A stretch of 47,629 nucleotides of DNA from Prochlorococcus sp. AG-670-O17 (GTDB taxonomy: Bacteria > Cyanobacteriota > Cyanobacteriia > PCC-6307 > Cyanobiaceae). The DNA is taken from positions 1 to 47,629 of the forward strand of contig QCTC01000007.1 of assembly GCA_003211315.1 (NCBI GenBank), given 5' to 3'. This document shows, piece by piece, positions 7,910 to 23,392 of the stretch (within the stretch, counting starts at the first letter, position 1; each line of letters begins with the position of its first letter). The notes under the pieces were generated by a model that was not told the origin of the DNA, made no database searches, and worked only from the letters and a program-made list of their open reading frames with translations. Made by a program: the position numbers and the translations under genes.

Positions 7910-8233
7910 TTATTTACAAGTTCTCTTATTCGATGATGATTGAATTAAATTGCCCATCCAGTTCTTAATATCTGATAAAACTTCCAAATCCAATTTGTAG
8001 TATACCCATCTACCCTCTTGTCTATCAGAGATAAGACCTGAATCCTTTAGGATCTTTATGTGATAGGAAATTTTAGATTGAGATAATCCAGTTACTTTAA
8101 CTATGTCGCAAACACAGATCTCTCCACCCATCATTAATTCAAGAATATTTATTCTAATCGGATCAGAAAGAGACTCCATTATCCCAATAAATTGCTCACT
8201 ATTAATCTTTTTAAGTTGTTCTAACAAAATCAA
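7910..8233 (-). CDS. arsR: ArsR/SmtB-family transcriptional regulator
   Basis: A 107-aa winged-helix repressor. The recognition helix region is GLSQSKISYHIKILKDSGL (about residues 49-67) and the wing is RQEGRWVYYKL. Helix 3 contains EICVCDIV, giving Cys40 and Cys42; Cys106 lies at the C-terminus. The start is TTG at 8231-8233; no in-frame ATG or GTG exists before the upstream TAA. It is divergent from the GAPDH gene and upstream of pstCAB. Members sense arsenite or related ligands and leave the operator on binding. The paired palindromes at 8282-8315 are the likely operator, implying autoregulation. Confidence 0.88.
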   Translation of the reverse strand: MILLEQLKKINSEQFIGIMESLSDPIRINILELMMGGEICVCDIVKVTGLSQSKISYHIKILKDSGLISDRQEGRWVYYKLDLEVLSDIKNWMGNLIQSSSNKRTCK

Positions 8234-8281
8234 AAGATCACTAACTTCTTAAATATTAACCTAAAAAAATTAATTACACAT

Positions 8282-8315
8282 ATCAAGAATTATTGATGTA
8301 TCAATTATTTTTGAT
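8282..8315. promoter_or_regulatory. Tandem ArsR-type operator boxes between arsR and gap
   Basis: Two 16-bp sites of the form ATCAA-N6-TTGAT: ATCAAGAATTATTGAT (8282-8297) and ATCAATTATTTTTGAT (8300-8315), spaced 18 bp start to start. They overlap a plausible -35 (TTGATG, 8293-8298) and abut a -10 (TATAAT, 8317-8322) for gap, which fits repression. The same form recurs upstream of pstS at 11638-11672. Confidence 0.75.
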
Positions 8316-8322
8316 ATATAAT
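8293..8322 (+). promoter_or_regulatory. Likely sigma70 promoter of gap-arsJ
   Basis: The -35 TTGATG (8293-8298) and -10 TATAAT (8317-8322) are separated by 18 bp, with the gap start codon 22 bp beyond the -10. The elements interleave with the ArsR-type palindromes. Predicted from sequence only. Confidence 0.55.
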
Positions 8323-8344
8323 AAAATAGGTTTCGATATTTGTT

Positions 8345-9373
8345 ATGAAAATTGGAATTAACGGCTTTGGAAGAATTGGTAGATTAGTTTTAAGAATTTT
8401 ATGGGAAAGAAAAGATATAGAAATAACTCATATAAATGAATTAAGTGGGGATTCTTTAACTGCATCTCATCTACTAGAGTTTGATTCTATTCATGGTAGA
8501 TGGAATAAAAATATAACTTCGAACGACAACGAAATAATAATTGAAGATAAAAAAATTTCCTTTACATCAACAAAGAACTATCTTGATGTTCCATGGGATA
8601 AATCTTCGGTTGATCTTGTTTTGGAATGTACAGGTAAAAACAAAGCTCCTAAAGAATTAAATCCATATTTTGATTCTCTTGGAATAAAAAAAGTAATAGT
8701 TGCCTGTCCTGTAAAAGGAATTGTGGGAGGGGAACAAGCACTTAATATTGTTTATGGAATTAATCAAGCACTTTATAAACCTGAAAAACATAAATTAATT
8801 ACAGCAGCATCCTGTACTACAAATTGCTTGGCTCCCATCGTAAAAGTTGTTAATGAAAATTTCTCAATTAAACATGGAGTTATTACAACTATTCATGACG
8901 TTACAAATACACAAGTTCCAGTAGATTTTTACAAGAGTGACTTAAGAAGAGCAAGAGGATGCATGCAAAGCTTGATACCAACTACAACTGGATCAGCTAA
9001 AGCGATTGCTGAAATTTTCCCTGAATTAGAAGGAAAACTAAATGGTCAGGCAGTAAGGGTTCCACTTCTAAATGCCTCATTAACCGATGCAGTTTTTGAA
9101 TTAAATAAGGAAGTAACTGAAGAGCAAGTTAATAATGAATTTAAAAAAGCATCTGAAACATATTTAAAAGGTATTCTTGGATACGAGGAAAGACCTTTAG
9201 TATCCGCTGATTACTTAAATGACTGTAGAAGTTCAATAATTGATGGACTTTCAACGATGGTTGTAAATTCAAATTTATTAAAGGTTTATGCTTGGTATGA
9301 CAATGAGTGGGGTTATAGTTGCAGGCTTGCAGATCTAACTTCTTATGTAATTGAGAAAGAAAATAAATTTTAG
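8345..9373 (+). CDS. gap1: Arsenic-associated glyceraldehyde-3-phosphate dehydrogenase
   Basis: A 342-aa type I GAPDH. The N-terminal NAD-binding motif is INGFGRIGR, the catalytic cysteine is in ASCTTNC (Cys157), the paired His is in IHDVTNTQ (His184), and the C-terminal YDNEWGYS is intact. Position between arsR and arsJ points to the arsenate version: it joins arsenate to glyceraldehyde 3-phosphate, giving 1-arseno-3-phosphoglycerate for export by ArsJ. It could also serve glycolysis; sequence alone does not separate the roles. arsJ follows 5 nt downstream. Confidence 0.92.
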
Positions 9374-9378
9374 TTTTT

Positions 9379-10635
9379 ATGAAGTTATCTAGTCTTCAAC
9401 AATATAGTGTCGTTACCGCAAACTATTGGGCATTTACTCTTACTGACGGTGCATTGAGAATACTAGTTGTTGGACATTTTCATGAACTTGGTTATTCAAC
9501 TCTGCAAATTGCTTTACTTTTTCTTTTCTATGAATTTTTTGGAATAATTACAAATCTTTTTGGAGGGTGGATAGGAGCAAGATATGGCTTAAGGCTTACT
9601 TTATGGATAGGAACGATTCTTCAAATTCTTGCTCTTTTCATGCTGATTCCAGTCAAAGAGAATTGGTCAGTAATCTTTAGCGTCTCATACGTTATGTTAG
9701 CCCAAGCGCTTAGTGGGGTAGCAAAAGATTTAAATAAAATGAGTGCAAAAAGTGCAGTTAAATCAATAGTTCCAGATTCAGAAGAGAATAATCAAAATAG
9801 TCAAAAACAATTATTTAAATGGGTTTCAATTTTAACAGGATCTAAAAATGCACTTAAGGGTGTTGGTTTTTTCCTAGGGGGTCTTTTATATAAGCTATTG
9901 GGCTTTAATAATGCAGTTGGAATAATGGGTTTAGGTCTATGCTTCGCATTCTTTTTAACTTTATGTCTTCCAAAAGATTCAGGGAAAATGAAAAGAAAGC
10001 CAATTTTTAAAGATCTTTATTCAAAGTCCCAAGGAATAAATATTCTTTCAAGTGCAAGGTTTTTCTTATTTGGAGCTAGAGATGTCTGGTTTGTAGTAGC
10101 TCTTCCAGTATTTTTAGACATTTCTTTTGGATGGGATTATTTAAAAATAGGACTATTCTTGGGTGGATGGATAATAATCTATGGTTTCTTTCAAGTATTA
10201 GCTCCATTACTTAGAAAAGTATGGGGGAAAAATAATAGCCCAACAAAAACTACCGTTCAATTTTGGGGACTTATCTTGACGGTTATTCCTTTATTTATTG
10301 CTGGAGCTTTAAACGGTGATAAATCATTAGGTCCTGTAATTGTTATTGGATTAATAATATTCGGCTTTATTTTTGCAATGAATTCAACTACTCATTCGTA
10401 CTTGATTTTGGCTTATTCAGATAATGAGAAAGTAAGTTTAAATGTTGGTTATTACTATATGGCTAATGCAGCGGGAAGATTATTTGGAACCTTACTCTCT
10501 GGCTTATTATTTATGCTAGGTAAAAATGCCACTATAGGTATGCAGTATTGTTTATATACTTCATCTATTTTGATTTTTATTGCTTGGCTTACTAGTTCTA
10601 AATTACCTACCTATTCTTCCAACAGCCTCAATTGA
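9379..10635 (+). CDS. arsJ: Organoarsenical efflux MFS transporter ArsJ
   Basis: A 418-aa major facilitator with about 11-12 hydrophobic segments. The N-terminal YWAFTLTDGALRILVVGHFH and the linked pattern GVAKDLNKMSAKSAVK are characteristic of ArsJ as I recall it. It is paired with a GAPDH gene under an ArsR repressor, the standard context. It should export 1-arseno-3-phosphoglycerate, which hydrolyses to arsenate outside the cell. Its last 33 nt overlap the 3' end of convergent pstS. Confidence 0.88.
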   Translation: MKLSSLQQYSVVTANYWAFTLTDGALRILVVGHFHELGYSTLQIALLFLFYEFFGIITNLFGGWIGARYGLRLTLWIGTILQILALFMLIPVKENWSVIFSVSYVMLAQALSGVAKDLNKMSAKSAVKSIVPDSEENNQNSQKQLFKWVSILTGSKNALKGVGFFLGGLLYKLLGFNNAVGIMGLGLCFAFFLTLCLPKDSGKMKRKPIFKDLYSKSQGINILSSARFFLFGARDVWFVVALPVFLDISFGWDYLKIGLFLGGWIIIYGFFQVLAPLLRKVWGKNNSPTKTTVQFWGLILTVIPLFIAGALNGDKSLGPVIVIGLIIFGFIFAMNSTTHSYLILAYSDNEKVSLNVGYYYMANAAGRLFGTLLSGLLFMLGKNATIGMQYCLYTSSILIFIAWLTSSKLPTYSSNSLN

Positions 10636-13601: not shown

Positions 13602-13739
13602 TTAAAACTTTAGGTTTTTTATAATCTTTTTTGATAAGGAGGGTTGTCTACTCTGATTAGTTTTCAAATTTCTTATCCAAAACACAACTCCAATTAACAA
13701 AAAAAGTTCAATAATTATTCCTAAACCAACCGCATTCAT
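13602..13739 (-). CDS. Small single-span membrane protein (45 aa)
   Basis: ATG to TAA. MNAVGLGIIIELFLLIGVVF forms one transmembrane helix, followed by a basic tail (WIRNLKTN, SKKIIKNLKF), so the C-terminus is probably cytoplasmic. AAAGGAGAAAAAATAATA before the ATG gives a reasonable SD. The start is 2 nt after the stop of the 29-aa ORF upstream, so it is the last gene of a three-gene run. Family unknown. Confidence 0.6.
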   Translation of the reverse strand: MNAVGLGIIIELFLLIGVVFWIRNLKTNQSRQPSLSKKIIKNLKF

Positions 13740-15613: not shown

Positions 15614-16149
15614 TTTTTAATTTTTGAACAGAATTCAATCTATTCGATTGATTTTCAATGTGAGAAATTTAAATCAGAGAGAAAACCGAATTAACATATT
15701 TTTTTTGCAAATTTATAAAGAGTATTTGTAAAAAAATTAAAAGTTGTAAAATTTTCCTTTAATAAAATTTTCATTTTGAAACATGTTGCAAATAAAAAAA
15801 GTATTTGATTTACTACAAAAAAATTTTATTTATAAAAATATCTTTTTCATAGAAAAGGAATGATCCCATTGTTGTTTCAGTAAGTTTTATTGATTATTAA
15901 ACTACATTTAATATTTTATTGATGCAGTATTAATACTCAGAAAATAAGCCAACAAACCCTGTTTTTATCTTGATCCCCGTGAGTTATCCACTTTTTAACC
16001 ATTTTTCAACAGGTTTTTCCACAAGTTGTAGATTTAATTCACTTTTCTATGTGCGAAATAAAATATAAGGTTTTTTTTGTAAAAAATGTCACGCGGAATT
16101 TTTTTGGGAACGATAAGATCAAAATTGGTTTAATAGATTTACAAATTCA
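15614..16149 (+). other. 536-bp non-coding stretch
   Basis: Very AT-rich, with many A and T runs and no ORF that I would support. The only distinctive part is the cluster of DnaA-box-like 9-mers at 15984-16023. The last bases may hold the promoter of the 46-aa ORF at 16150. Confidence 0.6.
15984..16023 (+). promoter_or_regulatory. Cluster of DnaA-box-like 9-mers
   Basis: TTATCCACT (15984-15992), TTTTCAACA (16003-16011) and TTTTCCACA (16015-16023) lie in the same orientation. TTTTCCACA is the cyanobacterial DnaA-box form and the other two are one or two bases off. No dnaA, dnaN or other origin gene is in the window, so a secondary DnaA-binding site is more likely than oriC. Confidence 0.45.
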
Positions 16150-17365: not shown

Positions 17366-17619
17366 TGGAAATTTTTAGTATCACAAGCTTTACTAAAGAA
17401 ATATCTCGTATTGACCTAATTGGTATTTTGGTTGGGCATTTAGTATTTGCTATAGCTTTAACTCAAATTTTGGACTGGACATGGCTTAAGAATTTAATGA
17501 GTGAGGAGGATAAATTAAAAATGCTAAATAGCTACACATGGAAAGACTTATTGGTTGACGGAGCAATCGTTGCTGTAGTTATTGGAATTATTTTTCTCAT
17601 CGTAAGTATATTTCTATAA
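17365..17619 (+). CDS. Small two-TM protein (84 aa, GTG start)
   Basis: Two hydrophobic helices (about 18-36 and 65-84) are separated by a charged loop with MSEEDKLKMLNSYTWKDLLV. The GTG start overlaps the upstream stop (TAGTG), indicating translational coupling, and is the only start that fits. No family is recognised. Confidence 0.6.
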   Translation: MEIFSITSFTKEISRIDLIGILVGHLVFAIALTQILDWTWLKNLMSEEDKLKMLNSYTWKDLLVDGAIVAVVIGIIFLIVSIFL

Positions 17620-18665: not shown

Positions 18666-18788
18666 TTATATAAATCTATTAATAATAAATCCTTTCTTCT
18701 TTATTAAAGAATAAGAGACCAATGAAAAGGTTGTAGATACTGATTTCACGGTCTCTTTTGTAACCGTAATTTTCGGTAGATACGACAA
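18666..18788 (-). CDS. Possible 40-aa peptide with a strong SD, or a structured RNA
   Basis: AAAGGAGGTGA lies 7 nt before a TTG, an ideal SD in a genome where SDs are rare. The frame from TTG starts MSYLPKITVTKETVKS and runs 40 codons. Another frame gives the short basic stretch HCRIYRKLRLQKRP. The sequence also contains an 8-bp inverted repeat (AAGAGACC 18713-18720, GGTCTCTT 18750-18757). It is unclear whether this is a peptide gene or an RNA. Confidence 0.4.
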   Translation of the reverse strand: MSYLPKITVTKETVKSVSTTFSLVSYSLIKKKGFIINRFI

Positions 18789-21765: not shown

Positions 21766-21900
21766 ATGTCAAAAATTAAATCTGTTGAAAAAGAAAAAAT
21801 TGTTGCTGAAAGACTCAATGGGAGATTTGCGATGATTGGGTTTATTGCGGCGGTTGGAGCTTATTTAACAACTGGTCAAATCATACCTGGATTCGTTTAA
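21766..21900 (+). CDS. hli: High-light-inducible protein (44 aa)
   Basis: A one-helix Hli/Scp protein. The chlorophyll-binding motif is complete: AERLNGRFAMIGFIAAVGAY, with the Glu and Asn/Arg ligand residues. The end GQIIPGF is typical. Hlis bind chlorophyll and carotenoid, protecting photosystem II assembly and repair under high light. The next hli gene begins 4 nt later, so the two are co-transcribed. Confidence 0.92.
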   Translation: MSKIKSVEKEKIVAERLNGRFAMIGFIAAVGAYLTTGQIIPGFV

Positions 21901-21904
21901 TCTA

Positions 21905-22159
21905 ATGAGCCCACTTACTGGTTTTATAATCATCGTTATAGCTATAACATTGCAATTTACTCTTTACACCATAAAGAGATTACAAGAGCCTTTAGAGCCC
22001 AATTTATTTGATACCCAAAAATCCCCCAAAATGAACAACAAGACAACAAGCTATTGGAAGAATGCCGAAATAACAAATGGAAGGTTAGCTATGGTTGGTT
22101 TATTGGCCTTGGTTGTTAATTATGGTTTTTTTGGATGGATAATTCCTGGATTTATTTAA
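21905..22159 (+). CDS. hli: High-light-inducible protein with an extra N-terminal helix (84 aa)
   Basis: The C-terminal half is a standard Hli domain (NAEITNGRLAMVGLLALVVN, then GWIIPGF). The first 23 residues (GFIIIVIAITLQFTLYTI) form a second membrane helix absent from most short Hlis. A soluble linker (about 25-50) joins the two helices. It lies 4 nt after the 44-aa hli. If the start at 21905 were wrong the extra helix would vanish, but no internal Met precedes the Hli domain except Met44. Confidence 0.88.
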   Translation: MSPLTGFIIIVIAITLQFTLYTIKRLQEPLEPNLFDTQKSPKMNNKTTSYWKNAEITNGRLAMVGLLALVVNYGFFGWIIPGFI

Positions 22160-22438: not shown

Positions 22439-22657
22439 TTAATCACAATAAAATAAACAATGCTGATTAGTAGGATGACTTGAACATTCCTTATTCCAAT
22501 AATTTTTGATTAAAGATTCTAAATTTTTTTCATTATTTTTTCTTAGGTATTCAGGAATATAAGTATATGAAACTAATTCTTCGTTAGCGTTATTAAAGTA
22601 GTTTTGGAAGTCATTAAAGTACTTTGGCAGAACTGTAAATTGCGTTTGAATCTTCAT
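22439..22657 (-). CDS. Small Cys-containing protein (72 aa), third of three
   Basis: 72 aa starting MKIQTQFTVLPKYFNDFQNY and ending KECSSHPTNQHCLFYCD with three cysteines in 14 residues. The SD is AGGAG, 6 nt before the ATG. It follows the 60-aa ORF by 13 nt. No signal peptide is obvious. Family unknown; the Cys cluster suggests metal binding or disulfides. Confidence 0.65.
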   Translation of the reverse strand: MKIQTQFTVLPKYFNDFQNYFNNANEELVSYTYIPEYLRKNNEKNLESLIKNYWNKECSSHPTNQHCLFYCD

Positions 22658-22670
22658 GTTTTTCTCCTAG

Positions 22671-22853
22671 TTAGTAATGAAAATAAGGAATTTCTTCTAA
22701 TGGCTTTCGAACAAAAGAACAGATCCCAAATTGCATGCATTCCATTTGTTCATCAGTTAAAGTTTTTGATTTTGACTCAATAGCATTAAAATTATTTAGA
22801 AAAGAATTGACTGCATTTTGGAGCATATGTTTATATGGATTCCTGCAAGACAT
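22671..22853 (-). CDS. Small Cys-containing protein (60 aa), second of three
   Basis: 60 aa, starting MSCRNPYKHMLQNAVNSFLN, with Cys at 3, 39 and 45 (MECMQFGICSF). The SD is AAAGGAGG, 6 nt before the ATG. It is the middle gene of the minus-strand operon. No family is recognised. Confidence 0.65.
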   Translation of the reverse strand: MSCRNPYKHMLQNAVNSFLNNFNAIESKSKTLTDEQMECMQFGICSFVRKPLEEIPYFHY

Positions 22854-22889
22854 GATTAACCTCCTTTTTTAGAAATGTTTCAAACCCTA

Positions 22890-23051
22890 TTATTCAATAG
22901 TGCAATAAGGATCACTTTGTGATTTGCTGCAAAAAATTGTTTTGCGTAGATAAGCTTTTTCATATTGATTATAAATATTTTGAGTCATAAAAACTCCAAA
23001 ATAAATAAGTAACATAGTCAGTATTAGTAGCTCTAATCCTAAGTTGGTCAC
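22890..23051 (-). CDS. Small membrane-anchored Cys protein (53 aa, GTG start), first of three
   Basis: GTG to TAA. It opens (M)TNLGLELLILTMLLIYFGVF, one membrane helix, then a polar part ending FCSKSQSDPYC-TIE, two Cys spaced ten residues apart. AAAGGAGG lies 8 nt before the GTG; the GTG overlaps a TGA in another frame. The shared Cys-x9-Cys style of ending with the 72-aa ORF hints at related function. Confidence 0.6.
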   Translation of the reverse strand: MTNLGLELLILTMLLIYFGVFMTQNIYNQYEKAYLRKTIFCSKSQSDPYCTIE

Positions 23052-23083
23052 ACTGATAACCTCCTTTAATTTAGTTGTTATTT

Positions 23084-23093
23084 AGTACGTACT
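23084..23093. repeat. Palindrome AGTACGTACT upstream of the Cys-protein operon
   Basis: A perfect 10-bp palindrome about 33-42 nt before the GTG at 23051, in the expected promoter region of the three-gene operon. It could be an operator. Confidence 0.35.
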
Positions 23094-23258
23094 GCATATA
23101 AAAATCAAGCGTAAGAATACCTAACAAAATTATCAAGCATTATCTGAAATGACCTTGGGAACCAAAATTAATAAGTTTATTTATACTTAGTTTTAAATAA
23201 ATCAGCATATCTACGCATATACAAAAAAAATTATTCGTACTAAATTTCAATTAACAAA

Positions 23259-23315
23259 ATGGAGGGATTAGAAATGATCGATAGTCCACCAAAGAAGTTA
23301 GTTAGATTGGTTTAA
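23259..23315 (+). CDS. Possible micro-ORF (18 or 13 aa)
   Basis: ATG-GAG... to TAA encodes MEGLEMIDSPPKKLVRLV. The internal ATG at 23274 has GGAGG 8 nt before it, so a 13-aa peptide MIDSPPKKLVRLV may be the real product. A strong terminator follows at 23354-23392. It could be a leader peptide or part of a small RNA. Confidence 0.3.
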   Translation: MEGLEMIDSPPKKLVRLV

Positions 23316-23353
23316 CAAGCCAGTTGTTTTCTACTACACATAACTAAGTTGAG

Positions 23354-23392
23354 AGATTGATTACAAAAGTCAGTAGTCAATCTTTTTTTTTT
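23354..23392 (+). terminator. Rho-independent terminator
   Basis: AGATTGA (23354-23360) and TCAATCT (23377-23383) form a stem with additional pairing in the loop, followed by nine or more T. This is one of the clearest terminators in the window, on the plus strand after the micro-ORF. Confidence 0.75.

Follow-up and report, generated by a model that had tools for sequence, protein, structure and literature searches.

A probable micro-protein operon next to the divergent Yfr11 sRNA in Prochlorococcus, with a candidate CP12-like tail on its third product

CP12 switches off carbon fixation in response to redox state. The protein is defined by a C-terminal cysteine pair, CxxxPxxxxC (PMC9406205). 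When oxidised, the C-x8-C loop of GapB or CP12 is described as putting the tip of the tail in the cofactor or active site of GAPDH, depressing the use of NADPH by the enzyme, and thioredoxin releases it (PMC4436894, PMC3838966). Tails of this type also occur on unrelated N-termini, in GapB of plants, ADK3 of Chlamydomonas and the CBS-CP12 proteins of cyanobacteria (PMC9406205, PMC3906501), and those on GapB and ADK3 bind GAPDH (PMC9406205). S. elongatus has a second CP12-like protein at low level, Synpcc7942_0252, which AP-MS recovered together with Gap2 and Prk (PMC11804935). The diversity of cyanobacterial CP12 and the existence of phage proteins that resemble its C-terminus are already known (PMC3906501), and phages that bring their own CP12 are thought to shut down the Calvin cycle and redirect carbon (PMC5082946). 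The Calvin-cycle switch described for Prochlorococcus is one CP12 gene, PMM0220 in MED4 (PMC2663038). The mini-proteins considered below were not reported in the literature searched, and the survey of CP12 types by Stanley et al. (2013) may list some of them.

The DNA analysed here is a stretch of 47,629 nt from Prochlorococcus sp. AG-670-O17 (contig QCTC01000007.1), referred to hereafter as the window; the assembly that contains it comprises 1.39 Mb in 75 contigs and is 82% complete. Its named relatives and its Yfr RNAs also point to Prochlorococcus. A first-pass annotation had described three small ORFs on the minus strand, and both their coordinates and their spacing were confirmed: P1 (53 aa, 22890-23051) is separated by 36 nt from P2 (60 aa, 22671-22853), which is separated by 13 nt from P3 (72 aa, 22439-22657). 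P1 starts with GTG in the window and with ATG in 10 of 10 aligned relatives. It has one hydrophobic stretch (Kyte-Doolittle maximum 2.26 in a 19-residue window), in agreement with the membrane helix proposed for the first ORF, and by this measure looks like a single-span membrane protein. The same measure found no such stretch in P2 or P3; with a membrane segment in P1 only, the secreted system also proposed earlier is not supported by hydropathy. The expected two or three cysteines per protein were counted as 2, 3 and 3 in P1, P2 and P3, and the two cysteine-bearing tails are those of P1, which has C-x8-C near its C-terminus, and P3. P2 is conserved in its C-terminal half, which includes the motif ECMQFGIC. 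Two hli-type ORFs lie 3' of the three genes on the plus strand (21766-22159), the second above the Pfam cut-off and the first below it.

All three ORFs are preceded by strong Shine-Dalgarno sequences. P1 and P2 share the site AAAGGAGG (23060-23067 and 22860-22867, minus strand), located 8 nt and 6 nt from the respective start codons, with predicted anti-SD duplex energies of -11.2 and -11.3 kcal/mol; P3 has AGGAG (22664-22668, minus strand) at 6 nt, with -7.3 kcal/mol. Among the 41 ORFs of at least 100 aa in the window, whose starts were assigned mechanically, none has a site as strong as that of P1 or P2 and one exceeds that of P3 (-8.4 kcal/mol), so that the rarity of such sites in the window was upheld. 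The sequence AAAGGAGG occurs seven times in the window, always on the minus strand, and two of these copies are those of P1 and P2. Judged from these sites, P1-P3 may be highly translated. Strong Shine-Dalgarno sites also precede small ORFs at 17521-17619 (plus strand, 32 aa, -11.5 kcal/mol), 18666-18788 (minus strand, 40 aa, -11.2 kcal/mol) and 13602-13739 (minus strand, 45 aa, -8.9 kcal/mol), two of which encode hydrophobic products.

The palindrome noted 5' of P1, AGTACGTACT, was located at 23084-23093 and is present once in the window. Of 11 aligned sequences of the locus, 7 have it exactly, 3 have it broken, and the remaining one (L091) has another palindrome, AATACGTATT, in its place; the element is therefore retained in part of the lineage. 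Elsewhere in the window, an arsenate-detoxification cluster at 7910-10635 consists of an ArsR/SmtB-type regulator, an ArsJ-associated GAPDH and an adjoining ArsJ transporter, and lies next to phosphate-transport-like genes; its GAPDH is not the Calvin-cycle enzyme. The sRNA Yfr17 (15867-16132, minus strand, 278 bits) lies in a region free of large ORFs.

Relatives of P2 were found in 20 of the 37 genus genomes searched and in 0 of 23 other cyanobacteria. A scan of named genomes returned 28 loci, all from Prochlorococcus. Together with the window, 27 of these have P1 or P3 adjoining P2 and form the operon-type set; the two outside it are L114, where the model used detected no P2, and L113, from an HNLC1 Prochlorococcus, which has two copies of P2 (5001-5171 and 7414-7584) and neither P1 nor P3 nearby. 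Within the operon-type set, 26 of 27 loci have P1 immediately 5' of P2 on the same strand (the exception is L108), and 24 of 27 have P3 immediately 3' of P2 (the exceptions are L090, L110 and L112). The pN/pS ratio was 0.28 for P1 (10 sequences), 0.42 for P2 (11 sequences) and 0.27 for P3 (8 tailed copies). These low ratios and the conserved gene order argue that P1-P3 are more than chance ORFs. The genomes surveyed by profile overlap the named loci (contig C29 of genome G021 and the contig of L090, for example, are equal in length), so the two sets are not independent. A second set of relatives was also seen, in which P1 and P2 are divergent to each other.

The sRNA Yfr11 (RF02363) is encoded at 23253-23391 on the plus strand, divergent to P1, with a score of 91 bits where the gathering score is 44. 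Yfr11 lies divergently 5' of the genes in 24 of the 28 named loci, or 25 of 29 with the window, and in 25 of the 27 operon-type loci. When 13 loci of both arrangements were scanned it was present in 4, all of the window type. In MED4, the level of Yfr11 drops when cells are moved from darkness into light and increases under DCMU, and the text available from that study does not mention the P1-P3 genes (PMC2518516). The response of Yfr11 suggests that the neighbouring genes may answer the same redox signal. The search for homologues of all three genes together thus recovered the order P1-P2-P3 repeatedly, with coding sequences under purifying selection, and the operon proposed at first pass is supported by gene order and spacing conserved across relatives. 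From these comparisons, P1-P2-P3 is a conserved set of micro-protein genes in Prochlorococcus, divergent to Yfr11 and probably transcribed together as an operon.

Other RNA elements were seen around the named loci. Of the 7 named loci with a tailed P3, 6 (L087, L091, L092, L094, L095 and L105) have Cyano-1 RNA about 3-4 kb 5' of the operon, against 0 of the 21 other named loci, an association that probably reflects lineage and not function. Glutamine-II riboswitch aptamers lie 3' of the operon in L103 (6321-6380) and L112 (6767-6831).

Searches of P1-P3 against Pfam and NCBIfam found no family at E 1, matches to PHROGs were weak (best E 0.035), and none of the three proteins passed a curated family cut-off. 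No P1 or P2 was found in phage records or viral contigs, nothing convincing was found for either among PDB sequences, and the fold model of P2 was poor. Neither P1 nor P2 could be linked to CP12: a profile comparison of P1 with CP12 reached E 0.015 but aligned the wrong region, the same comparison for P2 gave nothing, and a comparison of the tails of P1 and P3 (E 0.021) was not convincing. Among the 40 weak P1 relatives, which are all rows of the P1 search below 35 bits, at least 26 lie within 500 bp of a match to the P3 family on the same strand, suggesting that a membrane partner belongs to the system. In genome G004 (contig C2, 318396-318894), and likewise in G064 and G083, two P3-family genes flank a short P1 relative, which makes this another repeated arrangement of the two families.

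The tail of P3 resembles that of CP12. The last 21 residues of P3, NYWNKECSSHPTNQHCLFYCD (codons at 22442-22504, minus strand), follow the pattern C-x3-P-x4-C-x2-Y and run flush with the stop codon. The C-terminal cysteine pair of CP12 is present as C58-x3-P62-x4-C67, and the protein ends in CLFYCD, with a tyrosine (Y70) three residues after the second cysteine, a further cysteine (C71) and an acidic last residue (D72); the tyrosine and the acidic end are placed as at the CP12 terminus, where the last residue is acidic or Asn. Like CP12, P3 is small. Relatives of P3 end in CLVYCD, CLIYCD, CLVYED, CLEYDD, CLIYED and other variants. The Prochlorococcus CP12 read here ends in ELFCDANPDEPECLVYDD, of which the last six residues are CLVYDD, and three viral loci end in the same six letters.

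Against 177,635 distinct PDB sequences, a profile of 20 P3 relatives placed CP12 (3b1j chain C) at the top with E 0.1, and a 21-member profile that included phage sequences placed three CP12 entries first (3b1j, E 0.012; 3zdf, 0.1; 6gfo, 0.12), with one other protein at E 10 or better (E 1.2). All three CP12 alignments extend to the final residue. Comparison with a profile of 25 CP12 sequences from other cyanobacteria gave E 3.4e-4, a score reached by 0 of 200 shuffles of the last 28 columns. A scan of 97 cyanobacterial genomes is a more independent test of the likeness than these comparisons. It returned 26 matches outside the picocyanobacterial family at E 0.3, and in genomes where Pfam CP12 was mapped separately, 13 of 16 such outside matches overlap a CP12 gene. 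We take the P3 tail to be a CP12-type tail, by descent or convergence. For P3, this tail favours the redox system proposed in the first-pass annotation, to which the neighbouring Yfr11 adds circumstantial support.

The likeness is limited to about 21 residues and could be convergence; outside the tail P3 and CP12 have nothing recognisable in common. P3 did not match Pfam CP12 (PF02672) at E 1, and one of eight P3-family members scanned did, with 14.7 bits against a cut-off of 22.7. At E 1, canonical CP12 went undetected by the 20-row profile in ten Prochlorococcus genomes, and the 21-row profile found the genome's own CP12 at E 0.178 only. When a model of the canonical CP12 tail was run over 3,248 ORFs, a P3 relative ranked first with 9.2 bits, unrelated ORFs were intermixed, and the tail of the window P3 was not among the ORFs with at least 3 bits. 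P3 has a PFTIL-type N-terminus and lacks the AWD_VEEL core and the N-terminal cysteine pair, neither of which is present in the Prochlorococcus CP12 read here either. The P3 tail is less acidic and lacks the acidic residues of canonical CP12 tails, its penultimate residue being Cys71 where some relatives have E or D. In Chlamydomonas CP12 the penultimate glutamate contacts an arginine of GAPDH, and by analogy the last residue of P3, an aspartate, could serve like the ultimate glutamate of GapB (PMC4436894). The fold model of P3 was poor (mean pLDDT 61) and found no match with Foldseek.

P3 also differs from the described carriers of such tails in setting and number. Whereas GapB, ADK3 and CBS-CP12 carry the tail on enzymes or domains, the carrier in the P3 family is a mini-protein of 45-75 aa; Synpcc7942_0252 is likened to P3 by description only. 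Canonical CP12 is a separate gene, above the Pfam cut-off in 49 of 61 genus genomes, with which the P3 family coexists in several copies per genome. At E 1, a profile search of ten Prochlorococcus genomes returned 7-16 P3-family matches per genome. In five genomes, where every match was read except one weak match in G015, ORFs ending in the C-x3-P-x4-C tail numbered 6 in the window genome (G000), 5 each in G015, G073 and G022, and 7 in G010, alongside 3-7 tailless members in each. In the shared architecture, a recurrent N-terminus (MKLxTPFTIL or similar) is followed by a middle part that varies and then by the tail. The same N-terminus is found without the cysteine tail in many proteins (L204, L210, L214-L216, L222 and others), and the N-terminal part must therefore have its own use. 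Within the picocyanobacterial family, 54 of the 151 genomes and 32 of the 59 genera had a P3-family match at E 1e-4; the genomes with a match measure about 1.0-2.0 Mb with one of 2.3 Mb, a range that leaves out the sizes of 77 matchless genomes. The rest of the class gave weak matches only, at E 0.007 or more. Of 30 P3-family clusters in eight genomes, at least 6 have an hli match no more than 5 kb away, compared to 1.7 expected (P3-family matches of at least 40 bits, G000 and G010 left out, hli matches to E 0.018), an excess that is modest and on which we do not lean.

Members of the P3 family are also carried by cyanophages. P-TIM68 encodes a 51-aa member with a strong Shine-Dalgarno site in addition to an annotated CP12 gene, and was the sole match, listed twice, that covered at least 80% of the phage protein among 50,697 phage records. 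The P-TIM68 mini-protein matched 52 viral contigs, 38 of which carry the full tailed form by the motif used; Hsp20 is encoded directly upstream in all 36 of these 38 that have at least 300 bp of upstream sequence. P-SSM2 has only a tailless N-terminal version, encoded by an ORF that overlaps the end of hsp20. This ORF is separate from hsp20, which rules out a fusion of phage Hsp20 to the N-terminus of P3.

Our preferred reading of the operon and its mechanism, held tentatively and with slightly less than even confidence, is that P3 is a pared-down, CP12-like redox tail whose target is GAPDH. Under oxidising conditions, such as darkness, electron-transport stress or infection, the two outer cysteines of the tail would form a disulfide, and the oxidised tail would dock into the cofactor and active-site cleft of the Calvin-cycle GAPDH (Gap2) and lower its NADPH-dependent activity until thioredoxin reversed the reaction. 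P3 lacks the parts that CP12 uses for phosphoribulokinase, suggesting that it would act on GAPDH only, either as a brake or as a decoy that competes with CP12. We infer the disulfide, the binding and inhibition of GAPDH, the expression of P3 and any joint action with P1 and P2.

Part of the data would also be explained if P3 and its relatives were short-lived, decaying copies that sit in variable regions and have no definite function, P1-P2 being the working part of a locus from which P3 is being lost. Of the 24 operon copies of P3, 16 have lost the tail, which must therefore be dispensable at the operon locus in sister lineages, and 3 of the 27 operon loci have no P3 or a broken one; both observations also count against our preferred reading. 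P3 is split in genomes G015 and G021, and tailless and broken relatives are common. Decaying copies would not be expected to show the low pN/pS of the 8 tailed copies, strong Shine-Dalgarno sites, the 5-7 tailed members counted per genome in five genomes and a relative kept by phages at a fixed place, and we consider decay unlikely. It is more doubtful still that P1, P2 and P3 belong to a membrane complex as its small subunits, with the tail of P3 docking some partner that is not GAPDH. The single span of P1 fits such a complex, as does the second type of locus, where relatives of P1 and P3 adjoin, but none of the searches indicated a partner or a complex, and the tail matches that of CP12.

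Two further readings turn on the tail itself. The metal system proposed at first pass would make it a small metal site (Cys-x2-His-x5-Cys-x3-Cys) in an operon for metal handling, its likeness to CP12 being convergence on a C-x8-C loop. Three cysteines and one histidine are suitably spaced in P3 and many relatives, which fits the proposal; the histidine, however, is replaced by N or Y in other members, the third cysteine is missing in those ending YED, YDD, YDG or KVY, and the flush C-terminus, the proline and the tyrosine are features of CP12. We give this reading a little less weight than the membrane complex. P3 could also be the precursor of a modified peptide, with a conserved leader and a cysteine-bearing core, as its conserved N-terminus, variable middle and conserved cysteine tail might suggest. 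This is highly improbable, as the supposed core is conserved and not variable, the N-terminus also occurs without any tail, and no modification enzyme or exporter was recognised beside the operon in a non-systematic look at the window ORFs.

If P3 is a CP12-like tail acting on GAPDH, the scheme can be extended to the whole family, in a form that we think unlikely. Some 5-7 interchangeable mini-CP12s per genome, each with its own middle and expression, would tune GAPDH or compete for it. The third cysteine, at the penultimate place in most members, sits where the CP12 tip enters GAPDH and could thus trap the enzyme covalently through a mixed disulfide. The cyanophage copy, which P-TIM68 carries besides CP12, would be a second lever on host carbon flow. 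Since weaker P1 relatives adjoin P3 relatives, P1 may tether the CP12-like tails to the membrane.

Prochlorococcus is a very abundant photosynthetic microbe of the ocean and a leading marine carbon fixer, and it has few regulators. If the proposal is true, the control of GAPDH in this organism would be more layered than supposed, involving multi-copy mini-proteins, a redox-responsive sRNA as a neighbour and copies carried by phages. The operon may also offer a lead towards the many small unannotated genes of Prochlorococcus.
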